Shown piece by piece: positions 1,795-9,516 of a stretch of DNA of 9,537 bases. This DNA is from Candidatus Eiseniibacteriota bacterium (GTDB lineage Bacteria > Arandabacterota > Arandabacteria > JAGLYR01): contig JAGLYR010000005.1 of the NCBI GenBank assembly GCA_023132135.1, positions 1 through 9,537 of the forward strand. The letters run 5' to 3'. The translations under genes were made by a program, and so were the position numbers. The stretch's first letter is position 1. Each line of letters begins with the position of its first letter. The notes under the pieces were generated by a model. That model was not told the DNA's origin. It searched no databases and worked only from the letters and a program-made list of their open reading frames with translations.

Positions 1795-3273
1795 ATGAAA
1801 ATCCTTCTCATCGATCCTCCATACAACGTGTTCACTGGGTACGCGACCCGGTATTTCCCGATGGGGTTGTGCTCTATCGCCGCCGCGCTCAGGGACGCGG
1901 GTCACGAGGTCGGCGTGCTGCACACGGATACGCTCAGCCGGCGGGACGATCTGGATTTCAGCAACGAGTACGTGCGGCTTGAGGCGTACCTGGAGGGAAT
2001 AGGCAACCACTCCCACCAGGTATGGTCGAAGCTGGAAGGAATCGCCCAGGAATTCCGGCCGGATCTGGTTGGCATTACCTCCATGACCATGACCTTTGGG
2101 AGCGCTGTGCGGACGGCGGAGCTCTCCAAGCGCCTGTTTCCGGATGTCCCCGTCATCATGGGCGGCGCGCACGCGAAGGACTGGCCTGCAATGACACTGG
2201 CTACGGAGGCCGTCGACTACTGTCTGGGCGGCGAAGCGGAGGAGACAGTTCTTCTGTTTGTGGACATGCTTGATGCTGGTGGAAGTGCGAAGGACAAGAT
2301 TCCTGGTCTGGGGTACCGCGCCGAGGGTCAGACGGTTCTCAATCCTGCGGGGCGGCCACCCGGGAACCTGGACGCGTTCAGTGATCCGGCGCGCGATCTG
2401 CTGCTCGCCGACGGGTACACGTCTGAGGACATGGGCGCGATCATGACCTCCCGGGGGTGCGCTTTCCGCTGTGCGTTCTGCTCACACGAGCGGGTGGTGC
2501 GGTTCCGATCCATCGATGGCGTGATAGGCGAGATCCGGCGGGTGATGGAGCGCTACGGCACGCGGCAATTCGCTTTCAAGGACGATTCCTTCAGTCTCAA
2601 CCGGAAACGGACGGTGGAGTTCTGCCGGAGGCTGCTGCAGGAGAAGCTGCGGATCAACTGGGACTGTACAACCCGGGTCAATCTCCTGGATCCCGAGCTT
2701 GTGGATCTCATGATAGATGCCGGCTGCAACACAGTGAAGATCGGTGTTGAGACGGGCAGCCCCAGAATCCTGGAGGCCGTTGACAAAGGGGTCACTATCG
2801 ACCAGGTGCGGAGAGCCGCAGAACTGCTGAACGATCGGGGACTTTTCTGGAGCGGGTACTTCCTCTATGGTGTTCCGCAGGAGACGGAAGAGGACTTGGA
2901 GGCGACGCTCCAGTTCCTGGAGGAGCTGGATCCGCCCTATGCGGGTCTCGGGCTGTACGCGCCGTATCCAAACACGAAGCTGTGGGACATCGGGGTGGAG
3001 ATGGATATCGTCGACCCGGATGTGCCGCTGGAACACTTTTTCACAACGAATCCCAAGGACTACTTTTTCCGGGACCCGTCGAGGCGGGTTGCCGGAATGG
3101 AACCCGATCAGTTTGCGGAAGTGGCGGGCCGCATGCGGGAGATCTTCCACAAGCACAACACGCGGCCGAAGGGTCTCTTGCGCCGCGCCTGGGCGAGGCG
3201 CAGAGCCTACATTGGTGACCCGCGACTGGTATTCAGTGACTGCCGGAAAGTGGTGAGCTGGCTATCCGGATAA
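1795..3273 (+). CDS. B12-binding-type radical SAM protein, probably modifying a sugar or lipid carrier
   Basis: This 492-aa protein has the layout of cobalamin-binding-domain radical SAM enzymes. The N-terminus MKILLIDPPYN begins a Rossmann-like B12-binding domain (about 1-170) with PDLVGITSMTMTF and the GGAH motif at 123-126. The usual DxHxxG cobalamin-ligand motif is not evident, as in many members of this superfamily, so cobalamin may bind base-off or not at all. The radical SAM core carries the [4Fe-4S] motif CxxxCxxC at Cys222, Cys226 and Cys229, then FKDDSF (261-266) and GVETGS (317-322), which fit the barrel strands near SAM. A basic C-terminal tail follows. The start is ATG 1795, with GGAG 5 nt upstream. 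The glycosyltransferase starts 25 bp after its stop. Relatives include BchE-like, methyltransferase and hopanoid or glycan-cluster enzymes; the reaction cannot be read from sequence. A role in glycan or lipid-carrier modification is inferred from its neighbours. Confidence 0.9.
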   Translation: MKILLIDPPYNVFTGYATRYFPMGLCSIAAALRDAGHEVGVLHTDTLSRRDDLDFSNEYVRLEAYLEGIGNHSHQVWSKLEGIAQEFRPDLVGITSMTMTFGSAVRTAELSKRLFPDVPVIMGGAHAKDWPAMTLATEAVDYCLGGEAEETVLLFVDMLDAGGSAKDKIPGLGYRAEGQTVLNPAGRPPGNLDAFSDPARDLLLADGYTSEDMGAIMTSRGCAFRCAFCSHERVVRFRSIDGVIGEIRRVMERYGTRQFAFKDDSFSLNRKRTVEFCRRLLQEKLRINWDCTTRVNLLDPELVDLMIDAGCNTVKIGVETGSPRILEAVDKGVTIDQVRRAAELLNDRGLFWSGYFLYGVPQETEEDLEATLQFLEELDPPYAGLGLYAPYPNTKLWDIGVEMDIVDPDVPLEHFFTTNPKDYFFRDPSRRVAGMEPDQFAEVAGRMREIFHKHNTRPKGLLRRAWARRRAYIGDPRLVFSDCRKVVSWLSG

Positions 3274-3298
3274 TCCAACCGCTGGACTCTGCAGAGCC

Positions 3299-4573
3299 GT
3301 GAGCGAACCTACACATGAGAACCGAGAAAGTCGAACCGGATCCGGGATGCCTCGGGTTCTGATCGTCTTCAACCCGTTTCACCCGGATCCTGGTGTGAGC
3401 GCGCGACATTACTCCGAGTTCGCTCAAGCGCTCCGAGATCGGGGTTGGGACGTCTCGGTCCTGACGGCGAACCGCTCGTACCGGGACAGCGGGGTCATCT
3501 TCCGTGAGGAAGAAACCTGGCAGGGGATCAAGATCTATCGAACGCGTAGCCCCGCCCTGAACATCGACCGACCGCTCCAGAGGCTTGCGGCTTCGGTCTG
3601 GATGATCGCTCGCTGGTTCTCGAAGGCGCGTCGGATGAAAGATGTGGATGTAGTGGTCATTGGTTCCAACCCGGCCTTTGCCGCTGCTCTGGGTCCCCTT
3701 CTGGGGACAGCGCTGCCCCGAGCGAAATTCGCCCATTGGTGTTTCGACGTTTACCCGGACGCGATCGAAGCGGCCGGATTCTCCCGGGTATACCGGCCGG
3801 TTCTGGACCTGCTCCGGCGCATCATGCAAGCGTCGTACGGGCGATACGATCTCATCGCAGATCTCGGACCGAGGATGAGAGAACGCCTCTCATCGGGGAA
3901 CCGGGAAGTGAGGCGGTGTAGCCTCATGCCATGGGCGTTTGCGGAGACAGAGAATCTCTCTGCGCCGGATCCGGCTATTCGCAGAGACGTGTTCGGTGAC
4001 GCGGAATTGGGCATTCTCTACTCGGGTACTCTGGGGAGGGCGCACTGTTTCGAGAATCTGCTGCGTCTCGCCCGCTGTTGCCGGGAGCGGGATGCAAGCA
4101 TTGCGTTCGGGTTCTCGTGTCGGGATCGCCGGGAGGGAGAGCTCTGTCAGGCGCTGCGCGCGGACGACAAGAACGTCAGGATTGTTGACTTCGTGCCCCT
4201 GGAAAAGCTCGCTAACCGTCTAAACAGTGCGGACTTGCACATGATGAGCCTGAAGCCCTCGTGGAGCGGCATTTCCGTACCCTCGAAGTTTTTCGGCTCT
4301 CTTGCCGTTGGCAAACCGGTCATCTACGAGGGGTCTGCAGATTCAGATATCGCGAGGTTGATTCTGGACAGGGGTATTGGTATTGTCCTGTCTGATGAGA
4401 ACATCGAGGAAGTCGCACAGCGGTTGATAGAACTGAGTCAAGACAGAGTGAGCCTGCGGGCATGGCAGGCCAGGGTGCATGAGGTATATCAAGAGGAATT
4501 CAGGCGTGACTTGGTGATGGACAAGTGGGGCGAGGAACTTCGAGCTCTTCTGCCGTGCATCGGCGGGAGCTGA
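3299..4573 (+). CDS. WcaI-like family 4 glycosyltransferase
   Basis: This is a GT-B-fold retaining glycosyltransferase of the GT4 type, resembling WcaI of colanic acid synthesis. The N-terminal acceptor lobe opens VLIVFNPFHPDPGVSARHY, with the expected Gly/His-containing loop, and continues through QGIKIYRTRSP. The C-terminal nucleotide-sugar lobe has ILYSGTLGRAHCFENLL near residue 240 and PSKFFGSLAVGKPVIY from residue 328, the region that contacts the sugar nucleotide in this family. No transmembrane segment is obvious, so it probably works at the inner face of the membrane. The given start is GTG 3299 (424 aa), 25 bp after the radical SAM stop, with only a weak ribosome-binding site. ATG 3347 (408 aa) starts closer to the conserved fold and is a real alternative. 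Donor and acceptor are unknown; GDP-L-galactose from the next gene is an attractive guess. Confidence 0.88.
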   Translation: MSEPTHENRESRTGSGMPRVLIVFNPFHPDPGVSARHYSEFAQALRDRGWDVSVLTANRSYRDSGVIFREEETWQGIKIYRTRSPALNIDRPLQRLAASVWMIARWFSKARRMKDVDVVVIGSNPAFAAALGPLLGTALPRAKFAHWCFDVYPDAIEAAGFSRVYRPVLDLLRRIMQASYGRYDLIADLGPRMRERLSSGNREVRRCSLMPWAFAETENLSAPDPAIRRDVFGDAELGILYSGTLGRAHCFENLLRLARCCRERDASIAFGFSCRDRREGELCQALRADDKNVRIVDFVPLEKLANRLNSADLHMMSLKPSWSGISVPSKFFGSLAVGKPVIYEGSADSDIARLILDRGIGIVLSDENIEEVAQRLIELSQDRVSLRAWQARVHEVYQEEFRRDLVMDKWGEELRALLPCIGGS

Positions 4574-4597
4574 CAGGTACCGGCCTCTGGAGGAGAG

Positions 4598-5617
4598 ATG
4601 AGGGACAAGCAGACCCGGGTTCTGATTACAGGTGCCGGAGGATTCATCGGGAGCCATCTGATCGAGTTTCTGAAGGAGAGGGGCTATTGGGTCCGTGGTG
4701 TCGACCTGGTGTACTCCCAGTTCATGAACACGTCTGCGGATGAATTCCGGATTCTGGATCTACGGAGGTGGCGGGATTGTCTGGCAGCGACGGAAGGTGT
4801 TGAGCATGTGTACTCCCTTGCGGCCAACATGGGGGGCATCGGATTCATCGAGACCGTCAAGGCGGATGTAATGCGCGACAATGTGCTCATTAACACGCAC
4901 ATGCTGGAGGCGGCGAGGGTCAATCAGATCAAGCGCTATTTCTACTCGTCCTCGGCTTGCGTGTACCCGACCTACAACCAGAGGGATCCCGAAGTGACGC
5001 CACTCAAGGAAGCCGAGGCCTATCCGGCGGATCCCGACAACGAGTACGGATGGGAGAAACTGTTCACTGAGCGAATTGTGGCGAGCTACAGAGCAGAACA
5101 CGGTCTGGAGACGAGGATTGCCCGCTACCACAACGTCTATGGTCCACACGGAACCTGGCGTGGCGGGCGCGAGAAAGCTCCGGCGGCGATCTGTCGGAAA
5201 CTCGCCGAGGCAGAAGACGGCGATACCATCAACATCTGGGGTGACGGACGGCAGACTCGGTCTTTCTGCTATATCGACGATTGCCTGGAAGGCAGCTACG
5301 GGCTGATGATGTCGGACTACCATCAGCCGCTGAACATAGGGTCGGACGAGCTGGTCTCGATCAATCGTCTGGTGGAGATTGTTTCGGATATTGCCGGCAA
5401 GAGGGTCCTCGTGGACCATGACACGACCAAACCCGAGGGGGTCCGGGGTCGCAATTCAGACAACACGCTGATCCGGGAGGTGTTGGACTGGGTTCCGGGG
5501 ATCTCTCTGCAGGACGGTTTGCGGAAGACCTATCCCTGGATTGAGGACCAGGTACGGCGCGCCGCCGGACGTGATCCGGCGCTGGAAACAGCGCGCAGTG
5601 CCCCGTTGAGCGATTGA
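4598..5617 (+). CDS. GDP-mannose 3,5-epimerase-like extended SDR enzyme
   Basis: This 339-aa extended short-chain dehydrogenase resembles plant GDP-mannose 3,5-epimerase (GME), which makes GDP-L-galactose and GDP-L-gulose from GDP-D-mannose by C4 oxidation and C3/C5 epimerisation. Residues 12-18 are the NAD-binding GAGGFIG. Catalytic positions recalled for the Arabidopsis enzyme (Ser143, Cys145, Tyr174, Lys178, Lys217) correspond to Ser119, Cys121, Tyr150, Lys154 and Lys193, all at a constant offset of 24. This implies an ungapped match across the active site. Hallmark stretches AANMGGIGFI, SSSACVYP, YHNVYGPHGTWRGGREKAPA, WGDGRQTRSF and EGVRGRNSDN are present. The start ATG 4598 has a strong GGAGGA just upstream and lies 24 bp after the glycosyltransferase stop. 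The enzyme is probably cytosolic and supplies the activated sugar for the cassette. A generic NAD-dependent epimerase/dehydratase of altered specificity is the alternative. Confidence 0.9.
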   Translation: MRDKQTRVLITGAGGFIGSHLIEFLKERGYWVRGVDLVYSQFMNTSADEFRILDLRRWRDCLAATEGVEHVYSLAANMGGIGFIETVKADVMRDNVLINTHMLEAARVNQIKRYFYSSSACVYPTYNQRDPEVTPLKEAEAYPADPDNEYGWEKLFTERIVASYRAEHGLETRIARYHNVYGPHGTWRGGREKAPAAICRKLAEAEDGDTINIWGDGRQTRSFCYIDDCLEGSYGLMMSDYHQPLNIGSDELVSINRLVEIVSDIAGKRVLVDHDTTKPEGVRGRNSDNTLIREVLDWVPGISLQDGLRKTYPWIEDQVRRAAGRDPALETARSAPLSD

Positions 5618-5674: not shown

Positions 5675-6664
5675 TCACTTCAAGTGCAGCTCCAGCACAT
5701 CCCCATCATGCACAGCATGATCGGTTTTCACCCGCTGCCCATCGTACTTGCCCTCCCCCCAGATCTTCGCGAAGGTCAGGTTTTCGGCGAAGTCCTTGTG
5801 CACAAGCCGGGCCACGTCCAGGACGGTGTCTCCTTGCTTGACGACAAAGGGCTTGGTGAGGTCAGGGGGTTTCTGCGGCATCTTGGAATAGACGCGGACG
5901 AGGCGGAGGAGTTGGAAGAGTTCCCGCCGGACCGAGTTCAGGCCCTCCCCGGTGGCGGTGGAGAGGATCACCACGGGAAATCGGTCGCCGACCCATGCTC
6001 GGAGTTCCCGGACTCGTGACAATGCCCCCGCCTGGTCCACCTGAGCACCGACGATGATAGTCGGCCTGCGGAACCAACCGACCCTTTCGTCCTCCCCGTC
6101 TTCCCGCACGGGCTCGACCTTGCCCTTGCGGATCTCGTTCAGGAGCATTTCCGCCTGACTCAGGATGTCGGCTTCGGCCAGGTTGACCAGCAGGAGAATG
6201 CCGTCCGCGTTCCGGGCCGTGTTGGAAAGCCATGTGGGCGTCATGCTCTCCGCAAGGGGTGGGGTGTCGATGAGCTGGATCTGGACATCTTCATAGCTCA
6301 TCATCCCGGGGATTGGGTGTTGGGTGGAAAAGGGGTAGGGGGCGATCTCGGTGTTGGCGTTGGTCAGGGCCGCAAGGACGCTGGATTTCCCCGAGTTGGG
6401 CGCGCCCAGGATCGTGATCTGGCCACAGCCTTCCCGCTCGACGTGGTCGATCATGGCCCTTCGCCCGGTTTTCCCGGATTTCTGGATAGCTTCGGTGAGC
6501 TTCGAGATCCTCGTTTTGATGTCGGCCCGCATCTTCTCGGTGCCCTTGTGTTTGGGGATCACGGCCATCATGTGCCGGAGGGCTTCCAGTTTCTCCTCAG
6601 AGGTCTGCGCTTCCTTGAAAGCTTTCTCGGCCTGGAGGTACTCGGGCGTGAGGTTGGCCGGCAT
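5675..6664 (-). CDS. Drg/Obg-like GTPase with C-terminal TGS domain
   Basis: I chose ATG 6664 (329 aa) because AGGAGGGG lies 5 nt upstream (6670-6677) and the bacterial family typically begins MPANLTPEY. A frame extending to 6742 adds 26 residues without such a signal. Residues 1-62 are a charged, probably helical region including IPKHKGTEK. The G domain has G1 GAPNSGKSS (87-95), a G2 Thr in PFST (114), G3 DTPP (133-136), G4 AQVD (207-210) and G5 STATGEG (235-241). The TGS domain covers about 270-329 and contains KQGDTVLDVARLVHKDF. TGS domains in Drg, Obg and ThrRS relatives contact RNA or ribosomes, so a ribosome-associated role in the cytosol is likely. G3 lacks the usual final Gly, and G4 lacks the Asn-Lys of NKxD, which may loosen guanine specificity. 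The gene stands alone, convergent with the cassette and divergent from the lipoprotein gene. Confidence 0.9.
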   Translation of the reverse strand: MPANLTPEYLQAEKAFKEAQTSEEKLEALRHMMAVIPKHKGTEKMRADIKTRISKLTEAIQKSGKTGRRAMIDHVEREGCGQITILGAPNSGKSSVLAALTNANTEIAPYPFSTQHPIPGMMSYEDVQIQLIDTPPLAESMTPTWLSNTARNADGILLLVNLAEADILSQAEMLLNEIRKGKVEPVREDGEDERVGWFRRPTIIVGAQVDQAGALSRVRELRAWVGDRFPVVILSTATGEGLNSVRRELFQLLRLVRVYSKMPQKPPDLTKPFVVKQGDTVLDVARLVHKDFAENLTFAKIWGEGKYDGQRVKTDHAVHDGDVLELHLK

Positions 6665-6735
6665 GCATTCCCCTCCTGTGAAGTTGGCAGTTCTGCAGCT
6701 GGGACACGACACTAACACAATGAGCCGTTTTTGTG

Positions 6736-6764
6736 TTGCCAAACCGGAGACCCTTTGGTAAGAT
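6736..6764 (+). promoter_or_regulatory. Candidate sigma-70-type promoter of the lipoprotein gene
   Basis: TTGCCA (6736-6741) and TAAGAT (6759-6764) are separated by exactly 17 bp, matching five of six and four of six consensus bases. Transcription would start near 6771 and leave a leader of about 85 nt before the lipoprotein ATG at 6855. The region is the 190-bp divergent spacer between the GTPase and lipoprotein genes. TTGGCA on the opposite strand at the same place could serve the GTPase, but no good -10 follows it. Confidence 0.45.
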
Positions 6765-6854: not shown

Positions 6855-7334
6855 ATGAGGAAGCTGACGCTGGTGCTGGTTCTGATGTGCTTTGTGATGG
6901 GTTGCGCAGGTGCGGCAACGCAGAGCTCGAGCTCTGGATCGTCCGTGCAGAAGGCAAAGAGACTCCCTCACAACTTTGACGCAGTCTGGGACGCGACAAT
7001 GGCGACTGTGGAGGATGTCGGATGGCCTGTGGATGTGAACGCAACGAACAGGAATGCCGGCATAATCGCTACCGAGCTGTTTCCCATCGGGTTTGATGAG
7101 ATCAACGAGTATGCCAGTTGCCCCAGGGGAATGAACGTGCAGATTATCAAGGGCCGGATGCTCGTGCAGATGGCTATTTCGCGGATGTCGGACTACGAGT
7201 CCAGTGTTGGCTTGGCGGTTCGCCTGGACGGCTGGGATGAGGGCGCCCAGAAGATGTGGCGCAGCTGCGAATCCGGTGGCAAGATCGAGAAGATGATCAT
7301 CGAGGGAGTCGAGAGACGCCTCGCTATCCATTAG
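6855..7334 (+). CDS. Small lipoprotein of unknown function (159 aa)
   Basis: The N-terminus MRKLTLVLVLMCFVMGC is a lipoprotein signal with lipobox VMGC and lipidated Cys17, followed by a Ser-rich linker (about 22-30). The mature part is about 143 residues. Its pattern, a helix near FDAVWDATMATVEDVGWPV followed by an asparagine-rich turn and GIIATEL, resembles the small alpha/beta domains of BamC-like and other envelope lipoproteins. I cannot assign a family. Two further Cys lie near CPRGMN and SCESGG and could form a disulfide. A GGGAGGG ribosome-binding site lies 2 nt before ATG 6855, with further purines upstream. The gene appears to be a single-gene unit, with its own candidate promoter and the strong terminator at 7358-7401. 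It is probably anchored in the outer membrane or the periplasmic face of the inner membrane. Confidence 0.8.
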   Translation: MRKLTLVLVLMCFVMGCAGAATQSSSSGSSVQKAKRLPHNFDAVWDATMATVEDVGWPVDVNATNRNAGIIATELFPIGFDEINEYASCPRGMNVQIIKGRMLVQMAISRMSDYESSVGLAVRLDGWDEGAQKMWRSCESGGKIEKMIIEGVERRLAIH

Positions 7335-7357: not shown

Positions 7358-7401
7358 GGTGGCCCCGTTGACCTGTGGAGGTTGACGGGGCCACCTTTTT
7401 T
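7358..7401 (+). terminator. Strong intrinsic terminator of the lipoprotein gene
   Basis: Arms 7358-7373 and 7380-7395 pair over 16 bp: eleven perfect outer pairs (GGTGGCCCCGT with ACGGGGCCACC), two G-T wobbles, then three Watson-Crick pairs. The loop is TGTGGA, and six T follow (7396-7401). This is a textbook rho-independent terminator and the strongest hairpin I found in the window. Confidence 0.93.
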
Positions 7402-7411
7402 GTGGTATCAT
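7382..7411 (+). promoter_or_regulatory. Candidate promoter of the M1 peptidase gene, overlapping the terminator
   Basis: TTGACG (7382-7387, five of six consensus) and TATCAT (7406-7411, five of six) are 18 bp apart, and TGG just before TATCAT gives an extended -10. The -35 lies inside the right arm of the terminator hairpin. Transcription would begin near 7418, about 50 nt before the start codon at 7468. This is a pattern match and was not tested. Confidence 0.5.
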
Positions 7412-7467
7412 TCAATCTCGTCAGGTTTCAAGACCAGTTCACGCGTTCAACGACTGGGAGGTATCTC

Positions 7468-9516
7468 ATGAAGCGCCGGTTACTGGTTCTTCTGCCGGCT
7501 GTCTTGCTTGGCTTGGTTTCGATGGCTCTTGCGGATGAGGGAGCGGGGCGGAGTCTCCGCGCCATGGAGAAGTTCCCGGACCCATCGCAGTTCGAACTGG
7601 GGTCCAGGGAATGGTTCAGGATCATAGACGCCGCCAAGTACCGCTGGTTGCTGAGCGATGGGCGGATCGACAACTGTCCTCACTCCTTCGACGTTCTGCA
7701 CTACAATATTGCTATCGAGATTGATTTTGCCAACCAGCTCATATATGGCGACACGCGTGTGATCTCGATGAGCGAGGAGGCCGATCTGTCACAGATCGAT
7801 CTGGATTTTACAGTGCTCACTGTGGACGCTGTCATGAGCGGGGCGGGCGACACGCTGAGCTACGCGTACAGCGACCCGGTCCTCACCATTGATCTGGGGC
7901 AGGCCTATGCTGTGAACGACTCATTCGAGGTACGCGTGGTCTACCACGGACATCCCGGCAATGAGGGGGGTGGGGGCTTCGGCGGCTTCTACTTCGAGGC
8001 GCTGCCTCAGATGGCCTACCAGATGGGAGTCGGGCTCGTCGCCGATCCTCCTTCCATGGGCAAGTTCTGGTTTCCCTGCTGGGACTGGCCCTGTGACAAG
8101 GCGACAGCAGAGTACCATATCACGGTTCCGGGCACCGTGAAGAAGGCGGTGTGCAACGGCACCCTGGTGGAGACGGCTGTCGATACCTTGGCGGACAAGA
8201 CAACCTATGTGTGGTTGGCGGCTCATGAGATGGCGCCGCACGTGATGATGGTGGCAGCGCGGAAGTTCACGGAGATCGTGGATTCGACATACGACTGGAT
8301 TCACTACTGGGTGTTCCCGCCGGATGCCGAGGATGCGCTCATCCATTTTCAGAACGTCGATATCATGATGGATGGCTTCATCCAGCGCTATGGCCCGTAC
8401 CCGTTCGACAAGTTCGGGTATGTTAGCGCGACCCGAGGTGATATGGAGCACCAGACGTGTGTGACTCACAACGGGTATCTGGTGGGGCCGCACAACTACT
8501 ACGACTGGCTACTGGCCCACGAGATGGCGCACCAGTGGTGGGGAGACTGCGTGTCGGTGAACGACTGGAGAGACCTCTGGCTGAGCGAAGGATTCGCAAC
8601 CTACTCGGAGGCCATCTACCAGGAGCATGCGTACGGGATGGATGCGTATCATGACTACATGCAGGACAATCTGATGCATCAGGTTCTGACGTCGGGGGAG
8701 AACTTCCCGATCTATGACCCGGAGATTCTCTGGGGTACGACATCCTACGAGAAGGGCGGGTGTGTTCTCCACATGTTGCGTCATGTTATCGGCGACTCGG
8801 TTTTCTTCGACGGTCTGGCCGCGTACCGACAGGCGCACGAGTACGAGAGCGCCACGACGCCGCAGTTCCAGCAGGCGATAGAGACGGTCAGCGGGCAGGA
8901 TCTGGACTGGTTCTTCGACGAGTGGATTTACGACCGGCACTGGCCCGAGTACGAGTACTCCTGGCAGGTTTCGGCTTCGCGATACGGCTATTCCATGAAT
9001 CTCGCCATCGATCAGGTGCAGACTACGGGGCCGGTGTTCGCAATGCCCGTGGAGGTCGGGATCACGACGGTGGCCGGGGATACCCTGGTCACGCTCTGGG
9101 TTGACGAGGCCCATGAGTTGTTCAGGCTGGATCTGGGGGCCGAGCCCACCGCCGTCGATCTGGATCCGGCGAACTGGATCCTGGACGAGCATGAGGAGGT
9201 TGCGTACACGGAAGTCGGGGAACAGACCGCCCTGGTTCCGGACCTTCGTCTCGAACAGAACGTTCCCAATCCCTTCAATCCTTCGACTACCATCCGCTAT
9301 TCCGTCCCGGGACGGGAGCACGTCCGGCTGGAAATCTTCAACGCCACCGGCCAGAGGGTTGCCTGTCTTTTGGACGAACGCGTGCCGTCGGGTTGGGGAC
9401 AGGTGGTCTGGAATGGGAGGGACGATAGCGGGGAGGCCGTTGCCTCTGGGATGTATTTCTGCCGGTTGACGACGGACGCTGGGTGCCAGGTCAGGAGAGT
9501 TGTACTGCTGAGATAG
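7468..9516 (+). CDS. Secreted M1-family zinc metallopeptidase with C-terminal sorting/FlgD-like domain
   Basis: I chose ATG 7468 (682 aa), which has GGGAGG 6 nt upstream and opens a signal peptide ending MALA|D after residue 22. A longer frame would start within the terminator hairpin. The N-terminal beta-rich M1 domain begins near SFDVLHYNIAI (residue 73 on). The catalytic domain has the exopeptidase motif as GDMEH (324-328), zinc site HEMAH (His351, Glu352, His355), third ligand Glu374 in WLSEGFATY, and the transition-state Tyr427 in YEKGG. All zinc and catalytic residues are present, so it should remove N-terminal residues from peptides. The last 90 residues, from LRLEQN at 593 with PNPFNP at 600-605, form an Ig-like domain ending GMYFCRL...VVLLR. 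This is typical of type IX-like sorting or FlgD-like tails, suggesting surface display or release. The gene stands alone after the lipoprotein terminator. Confidence 0.95.
   Translation: MKRRLLVLLPAVLLGLVSMALADEGAGRSLRAMEKFPDPSQFELGSREWFRIIDAAKYRWLLSDGRIDNCPHSFDVLHYNIAIEIDFANQLIYGDTRVISMSEEADLSQIDLDFTVLTVDAVMSGAGDTLSYAYSDPVLTIDLGQAYAVNDSFEVRVVYHGHPGNEGGGGFGGFYFEALPQMAYQMGVGLVADPPSMGKFWFPCWDWPCDKATAEYHITVPGTVKKAVCNGTLVETAVDTLADKTTYVWLAAHEMAPHVMMVAARKFTEIVDSTYDWIHYWVFPPDAEDALIHFQNVDIMMDGFIQRYGPYPFDKFGYVSATRGDMEHQTCVTHNGYLVGPHNYYDWLLAHEMAHQWWGDCVSVNDWRDLWLSEGFATYSEAIYQEHAYGMDAYHDYMQDNLMHQVLTSGENFPIYDPEILWGTTSYEKGGCVLHMLRHVIGDSVFFDGLAAYRQAHEYESATTPQFQQAIETVSGQDLDWFFDEWIYDRHWPEYEYSWQVSASRYGYSMNLAIDQVQTTGPVFAMPVEVGITTVAGDTLVTLWVDEAHELFRLDLGAEPTAVDLDPANWILDEHEEVAYTEVGEQTALVPDLRLEQNVPNPFNPSTTIRYSVPGREHVRLEIFNATGQRVACLLDERVPSGWGQVVWNGRDDSGEAVASGMYFCRLTTDAGCQVRRVVLLR

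Follow-up and report, generated by a model that had tools for sequence, protein, structure and literature searches.

A lineage-specific gene trio of a B12-binding radical SAM protein, a glycosyltransferase and a GDP-mannose 3,5-epimerase in Candidatus Eiseniibacteriota

Modification of sugars by radical SAM enzymes is known from antibiotics and from a few lipids. GenK and GenD1, the cobalamin radical SAM C-methyltransferases of gentamicin biosynthesis in actinomycete secondary metabolism, act on sugar carbons post-glycosylation, that is, on sugars that are already glycosidically linked (PMC12689558). HpnJ likewise acts on an already linked sugar (PMC12583986), in this case one carried on a lipid and after a glycosyltransferase, and the radical SAM 1,2-diol dehydratase AprD4 (PDB 6fd2) has a glycosidic sugar as its substrate, the pseudodisaccharide paromamine (PMC5461906). 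GDP-mannose 3,5-epimerase (GME), described from Arabidopsis (PDB 2c59) and, as GM35E, from Methylacidiphilum, is defined in Arabidopsis numbering by S143, C145, Y174, K178, N203, K217, R243, and R306, and yields GDP-L-gulose and GDP-D-altrose as by-products (PMC8787198).

The window analyzed here is a stretch of 9,537 nucleotides that forms a complete contig (JAGLYR010000005.1) of a 3.4 Mb Candidatus Eiseniibacteriota genome (G000; 96% complete), from a poorly sampled phylum with few genomes, all of one class. It carries adjacent genes for a B12-binding radical SAM protein, a glycosyltransferase (GT), and a GME. The trio is real and coherent, yet it is a lineage-specific combination of known enzyme kinds; its main interest lies in the unnamed radical SAM clade and the polysaccharide context of that clade. 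A preliminary description of this DNA knew of no pathway with exactly this trio, and our literature search agrees, having found no paper that describes the combination; a search for bacterial L-galactose polysaccharides returned nothing useful.

Locus and genomic setting

The features considered are as follows:

1795 to 3273, + strand: B12-binding radical SAM protein, 492 aa (open reading frame and domain matches)
3299 to 4573, + strand: GT4, WcaI-like glycosyltransferase, 424 aa counted from GTG; ATG 3347 is the likely true start
4598 to 5617, + strand: GDP-mannose 3,5-epimerase, 339 aa
1713 to 1733, + strand: weak terminator-like hairpin, separating the trio from the gene 5′ of it
5675 to 6742, − strand: convergent TGS-domain GTPase, bounding the trio and outside it
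216 to 1667, + strand: TPR and aspartyl-protease-like protein, 5′ of the trio and outside it

The ORF coordinates confirm three genes on one strand, as first reported, with gaps of 25 bp (radical SAM to GT) and 24 bp (GT to GME); B12-binding, Radical_SAM, and GT4 domains, together with the GME match given below, bear out the gene identities, and the view that all three genes point to glycan synthesis is supported as well. GGAG-type Shine-Dalgarno sites precede the radical SAM and GME genes. The GT probably starts at ATG 3347 (MPRVL...) rather than at GTG 3299, because no Shine-Dalgarno site precedes the GTG and residues 1–14 of the predicted model have pLDDT below 50; this start would widen the first gap to 73 bp. 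The convergent gene said to lie downstream is indeed there. The upstream terminator is present as a hairpin but is weak: the window has nine terminator-like sites, and shuffled sequence gives 6.0 ± 2.4. Co-transcription of the trio, formerly rated very likely, is better called likely.

No glycan genes occur among the window neighbors of the trio, namely the TPR/aspartyl-protease protein on the 5′ side and, in downstream order, the GTPase, a small protein, and an M1 peptidase. Nor were flippase, polymerase, or further GT genes found around the trio on this one contig, whose ends limit the view; by these local neighbors, the trio is not part of an ordinary large O-antigen or capsule cluster. Other contigs of the same genome hold five sugar-phosphate transferase (Bac_transf) and four flippase matches, which would supply initiating transferases and flippases. 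The original label of an undescribed module survives for the combination, which is new, but not for the parts, which are of known kinds and appear to form a satellite of exopolysaccharide machinery encoded on other contigs.

Base composition gives no foreign signal (GC 0.585–0.609 in the trio, 0.571–0.638 in the flanks). Searches of seven class relatives found neither the radical SAM protein (E 1e-50) nor the GME (E 1e-60) in any of them; six of these relatives retain the GTPase, in another neighborhood. The trio is lineage-specific and perhaps acquired. An attempt to place an insertion site by synteny was unsuccessful: the GTPase neighborhood is conserved in trio-less relatives, the other window genes are absent there, and the upstream gene is unmatched, leaving no clean empty site.

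Outside the trio, the upstream protein (216–1667) combines TPR repeats with a retropepsin-like aspartyl protease domain and is without a match in class relatives at E 1e-20. The M1-family peptidase (7375–9516) bears a C-terminal FlgD-like or type IX secretion sorting-like domain (26 bits, cut-off 23). After the small ORF at 6855–7334 comes a strong hairpin of 17 bp with a trailing T run (7358–7395); since it overlaps the annotated GTG of the peptidase, the true start of that gene is probably further in.

The radical SAM clade and its genomic context

An N-terminal B12-binding domain (66.8 bits, cut-off 32.1) and a Radical_SAM core (82.2 bits) with the CX3CX2C cluster motif CAFRCAFC at residues 222–229 assign the window protein, at the level of sequence, to the B12-binding (class B type) radical SAM superfamily. 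Its best NCBIfam score, to ApyD (NF050148), is 160.5 bits against a cut-off of 750; HpnJ (TIGR03471), also among the three best matches, scores 152 bits against 577.6, BchE (TIGR02026) 150.7 against 481.35, and the AprD4 diol dehydratase family (NF033070) 112.4 against 500. By these scores the clade lies outside every NCBIfam equivalog; the best E-value for its other members is 1e-67, to BchE. HpnJ and BchE, both non-methylating B12 radical SAM enzymes, are among the best-scoring families for all 46 clade members, yet the window protein falls far below their cut-offs and the window has no hopanoid or pigment genes. GenK and GenD1 belong to the same superfamily.

Clade sampling scanned one genome per species and covered 80 loci out of 422 matched stretches. 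Members score at least 557 bits in the profile search, and the next score down is 468; both domains occur in 46 of 46 members scanned. The clade has a patchy distribution over many phyla, mostly uncultured lineages in which binning errors of metagenome-assembled genomes are possible. In the tree, the window protein is next to one deltaproteobacterial (57% identity) and one armatimonadal protein, with support of 95 and 99. A search of plasmids returned only a 27% match. A DUF362 gene lies directly 5′ of the closest relative (57%), at 8003–9490 of locus L044.

The predicted structure (pLDDT 93.8) matches B12-type radical SAM enzymes along its length. AprD4 is the best match among solved structures both by profile (157 bits; MgmA follows at 120) and by fold (Z 28.7; MgmA 28.3, OxsB 28.3, CysS 27.4), though the cassette is without an AprD3-like reductase gene. 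Fold does not name the reaction: a dehydratase (AprD4), a methylase (MgmA), and a ring-contracting enzyme (OxsB) all lie within Z 0.4 of one another. Similarity does not fix the reaction, because the four matched enzymes, CysS being another methylase, span dehydration, methylation, and ring contraction.

Members of the clade stand mostly near glycan genes. A recognized glycan gene lies at most six genes from the radical SAM gene in 39 of 47 loci, a GT4 gene is directly adjacent in 15, and the frequency of glycan genes drops with distance, from 19/47 at position −1 and 26/44 at +1 to 3/31 at −6 and 1/27 at +6. Riflebacteria, Methylomirabilis, and others share a repeated order: a UDP-ManNAc-type dehydrogenase, the radical SAM gene, in some an XrtA-type amidotransferase, an alcohol-dehydrogenase/Gfo-Idh-MocA fusion, a heparinase II/III-like protein, and a WcaI-like GT. 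Because the clade is paired there with the dehydrogenase and amidotransferase, its substrate may be other than L-galactose; no GDP-sugar gene was seen in these loci, which hold the WcaI-like GT subfamily. In Saganbacteria the radical SAM gene stands beside sugar-phosphate transferase, Wzz, and Wza genes. On an armatimonadal contig the gene directly 5′ of the radical SAM gene encodes a fusion of a WcaI-like GT with a sugar-phosphate transferase, with non-glycan genes alongside. The dehydrogenase–radical SAM–heparinase-like–GT operon, seen at five loci (L058, L059, L062, L064, L065), is better conserved than the window trio.

Recurring pairs around the glycosyltransferase

The GT has GT4 domains and a GT-B fold. 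It matches the WcaI family (NF007640) over its full length, but at 83.4 bits against a cut-off of 276, and is treated as WcaI-like only; its relatives occur in exopolysaccharide loci. WcaI is probably a fucosyltransferase with a GDP-6-deoxy-L-galactose donor. With a subfamily profile built from four GTs (the window's and those of L142, L162, and L139), a subfamily member was found at most four genes from the radical SAM gene in 12 of 47 loci, after which the score drops from 98.9 to 75.5 bits.

The GME matches the Arabidopsis enzyme over its full length at E 2e-107, with GDP-fucose synthase as the next family at 1e-32. All eight defining residues are kept, as S119, C121, Y150, K154, N179, K193, R221, and R285. 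They would provide the Ser/YxxxK short-chain dehydrogenase triad (S119, Y150, K154), the Cys-Lys couple C121/K193, the Cys-acidifying R285, and the substrate-binding N179 and R221; the Lys base sets the protein apart from GDP-fucose synthase, which has His. It thus shares the catalytic and substrate-binding residues of the Arabidopsis and Methylacidiphilum enzymes but is a predicted bacterial GME encoded beside GT and radical SAM genes.

Three other lineages have the GT and GME adjacent. In G363, a GT sharing 40% identity with that of the window stands beside the GME (54%); a WecA-type gene comes next, and a carbamoyltransferase gene flanks the pair at its opposite end. In G136, the adjacent GT (24%) and GME (60%) belong to a cluster that also holds Wzz, O-antigen-ligase-type, and sugar-phosphate transferase genes. 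On a Thalassobaculum plasmid, the gene directly 3′ of the GME (53%) encodes a GT4 from the subfamily of the window GT. An ascorbate-type use of the GME seems less likely, as GT neighbors in four lineages point to glycan. The G136 cluster also carries a B12 radical SAM gene from outside the clade, and a family search returned only G136 itself. This locus (L139) is the only one to join the GT-GME pair and a B12 radical SAM gene in one exopolysaccharide cluster, and its radical SAM protein scores 317 bits, against at least 557 for the clade.

The neighborhood search proposed earlier, in which a trio kept across several lineages would have supported a functional unit, recovered no such trio. A true GME is within reach of the radical SAM gene in 0 of 47 clade loci, and among 386 sampled genomes only that of the window holds both genes at the cut-offs used (radical SAM E 1e-60, GME E 1e-90). 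The two genes gave 18 and 16 positives in these genomes, for which chance expects about one overlap, so the missing overlap is not evidence against a link and shows only that there is no conserved unit. With no other genome found to hold both, the joint pathway rests on one operon. The recurring units are instead two pairs, GT with GME and radical SAM with GT. As its subfamily pairs with both, the GT is the link between an L-galactose donor gene and an exopolysaccharide-type radical SAM protein.

Proposed pathway and competing readings

With somewhat better than even confidence, we read the trio as a satellite glycan cassette in which the GME makes GDP-L-galactose, the GT transfers the sugar, and the radical SAM protein alters a carbon of a sugar within the glycan. 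The GME would, with strong backing from its sequence, convert GDP-D-mannose to GDP-L-galactose and some GDP-L-gulose; as the latter is a by-product of the enzyme, the transferred sugar could be L-gulose. The GT would then use this GDP-L-hexose to glycosylate an acceptor, which is most probably a sugar carried on polyprenyl diphosphate. A GDP-L-hexose donor is suggested by the pairing of GT and GME genes in four lineages, though the wider subfamily occurs also in loci without GDP-sugar genes. Finally, the radical SAM protein would abstract hydrogen from an unactivated carbon of the L-hexose or a neighboring sugar in the glycan and modify it. The preliminary description had left open modification before or after transfer; the latter is better supported, because the clade is constantly accompanied by a GT and polysaccharide genes, not by any one nucleotide-sugar enzyme, and because sugar-acting B12 radical SAM enzymes work on glycosides. 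C-methylation via methylcobalamin is slightly favored, methylation being the commonest B12 radical SAM reaction (PMC13142503), and a non-methylating change (deoxygenation, ring contraction, or epimerization) follows closely in likelihood, as BchE, HpnJ, and AprD4, the nearest named relatives, do not methylate. The product would feed an exopolysaccharide system, and the cassette would be one lineage's joining of two older pairings.

It is also possible, and we put this forward tentatively, that the clade as a whole makes an undescribed carbon-centered change on exopolysaccharide sugars in many phyla, the cassette being a GT-coupled, L-galactose version that gives a branched, deoxygenated, or carbocyclic L-hexose. 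Should the clade prove tied to surface polysaccharides across many uncultured phyla, unfamiliar sugar chemistry would be common in bacterial coats; the minimal pairings also mean that only a few genes are needed to test donor and substrate.

The absence of GME from all 47 clade loci, the lack of the window's radical SAM clade beside GME relatives, and the GT-GME pairs without a radical SAM gene at L142 and L190 would suit a reading in which only the GT and GME cooperate, in L-galactosylation, and an independent exopolysaccharide modifier shares their operon by chance and acts on another residue. We consider this rather unlikely in view of the short same-strand gaps, the isolation of the trio from other glycan genes, and the pairing of the clade with the same GT subfamily in 12 loci. 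Less probable still, and doubtful in our view, is a glycolipid head group, in which a membrane lipid would receive L-gulose or L-galactose from the GT and the radical SAM protein would contract or rearrange the ring. HpnJ and calditol synthase do work on lipid-linked hexoses (PMC12583986, PMC9385802), HpnJ is among the top three family matches, and the cassette has no polymerase or flippase of its own; however, the score is far under the HpnJ cut-off, and the clusters around clade relatives are of polymer type, carrying Wza, Wzz, sugar-phosphate transferase, or heparinase genes. B12 radical SAM enzymes have very varied substrates (PMC13142503), and a nucleotide sugar or a non-sugar such as a peptide or cofactor might be acted on here, but the glycan context in 39 of 47 loci makes this very improbable.

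Beside the satellite cassette we favor, some features of other GME loci may be recorded. On an Azospirillum brasilense plasmid (L188; NZ_CP059454.1), the exopolysaccharide region that includes a GME has two genes annotated as radical SAM, of which one (10179–11534) is not of the window clade and the second is cut by the locus edge. Carbamoyltransferase genes occur near GME in two unrelated exopolysaccharide loci (L142, 10173–11921; L188, 14434–16275); bleomycin also combines L-gulose with carbamoyl-mannose.
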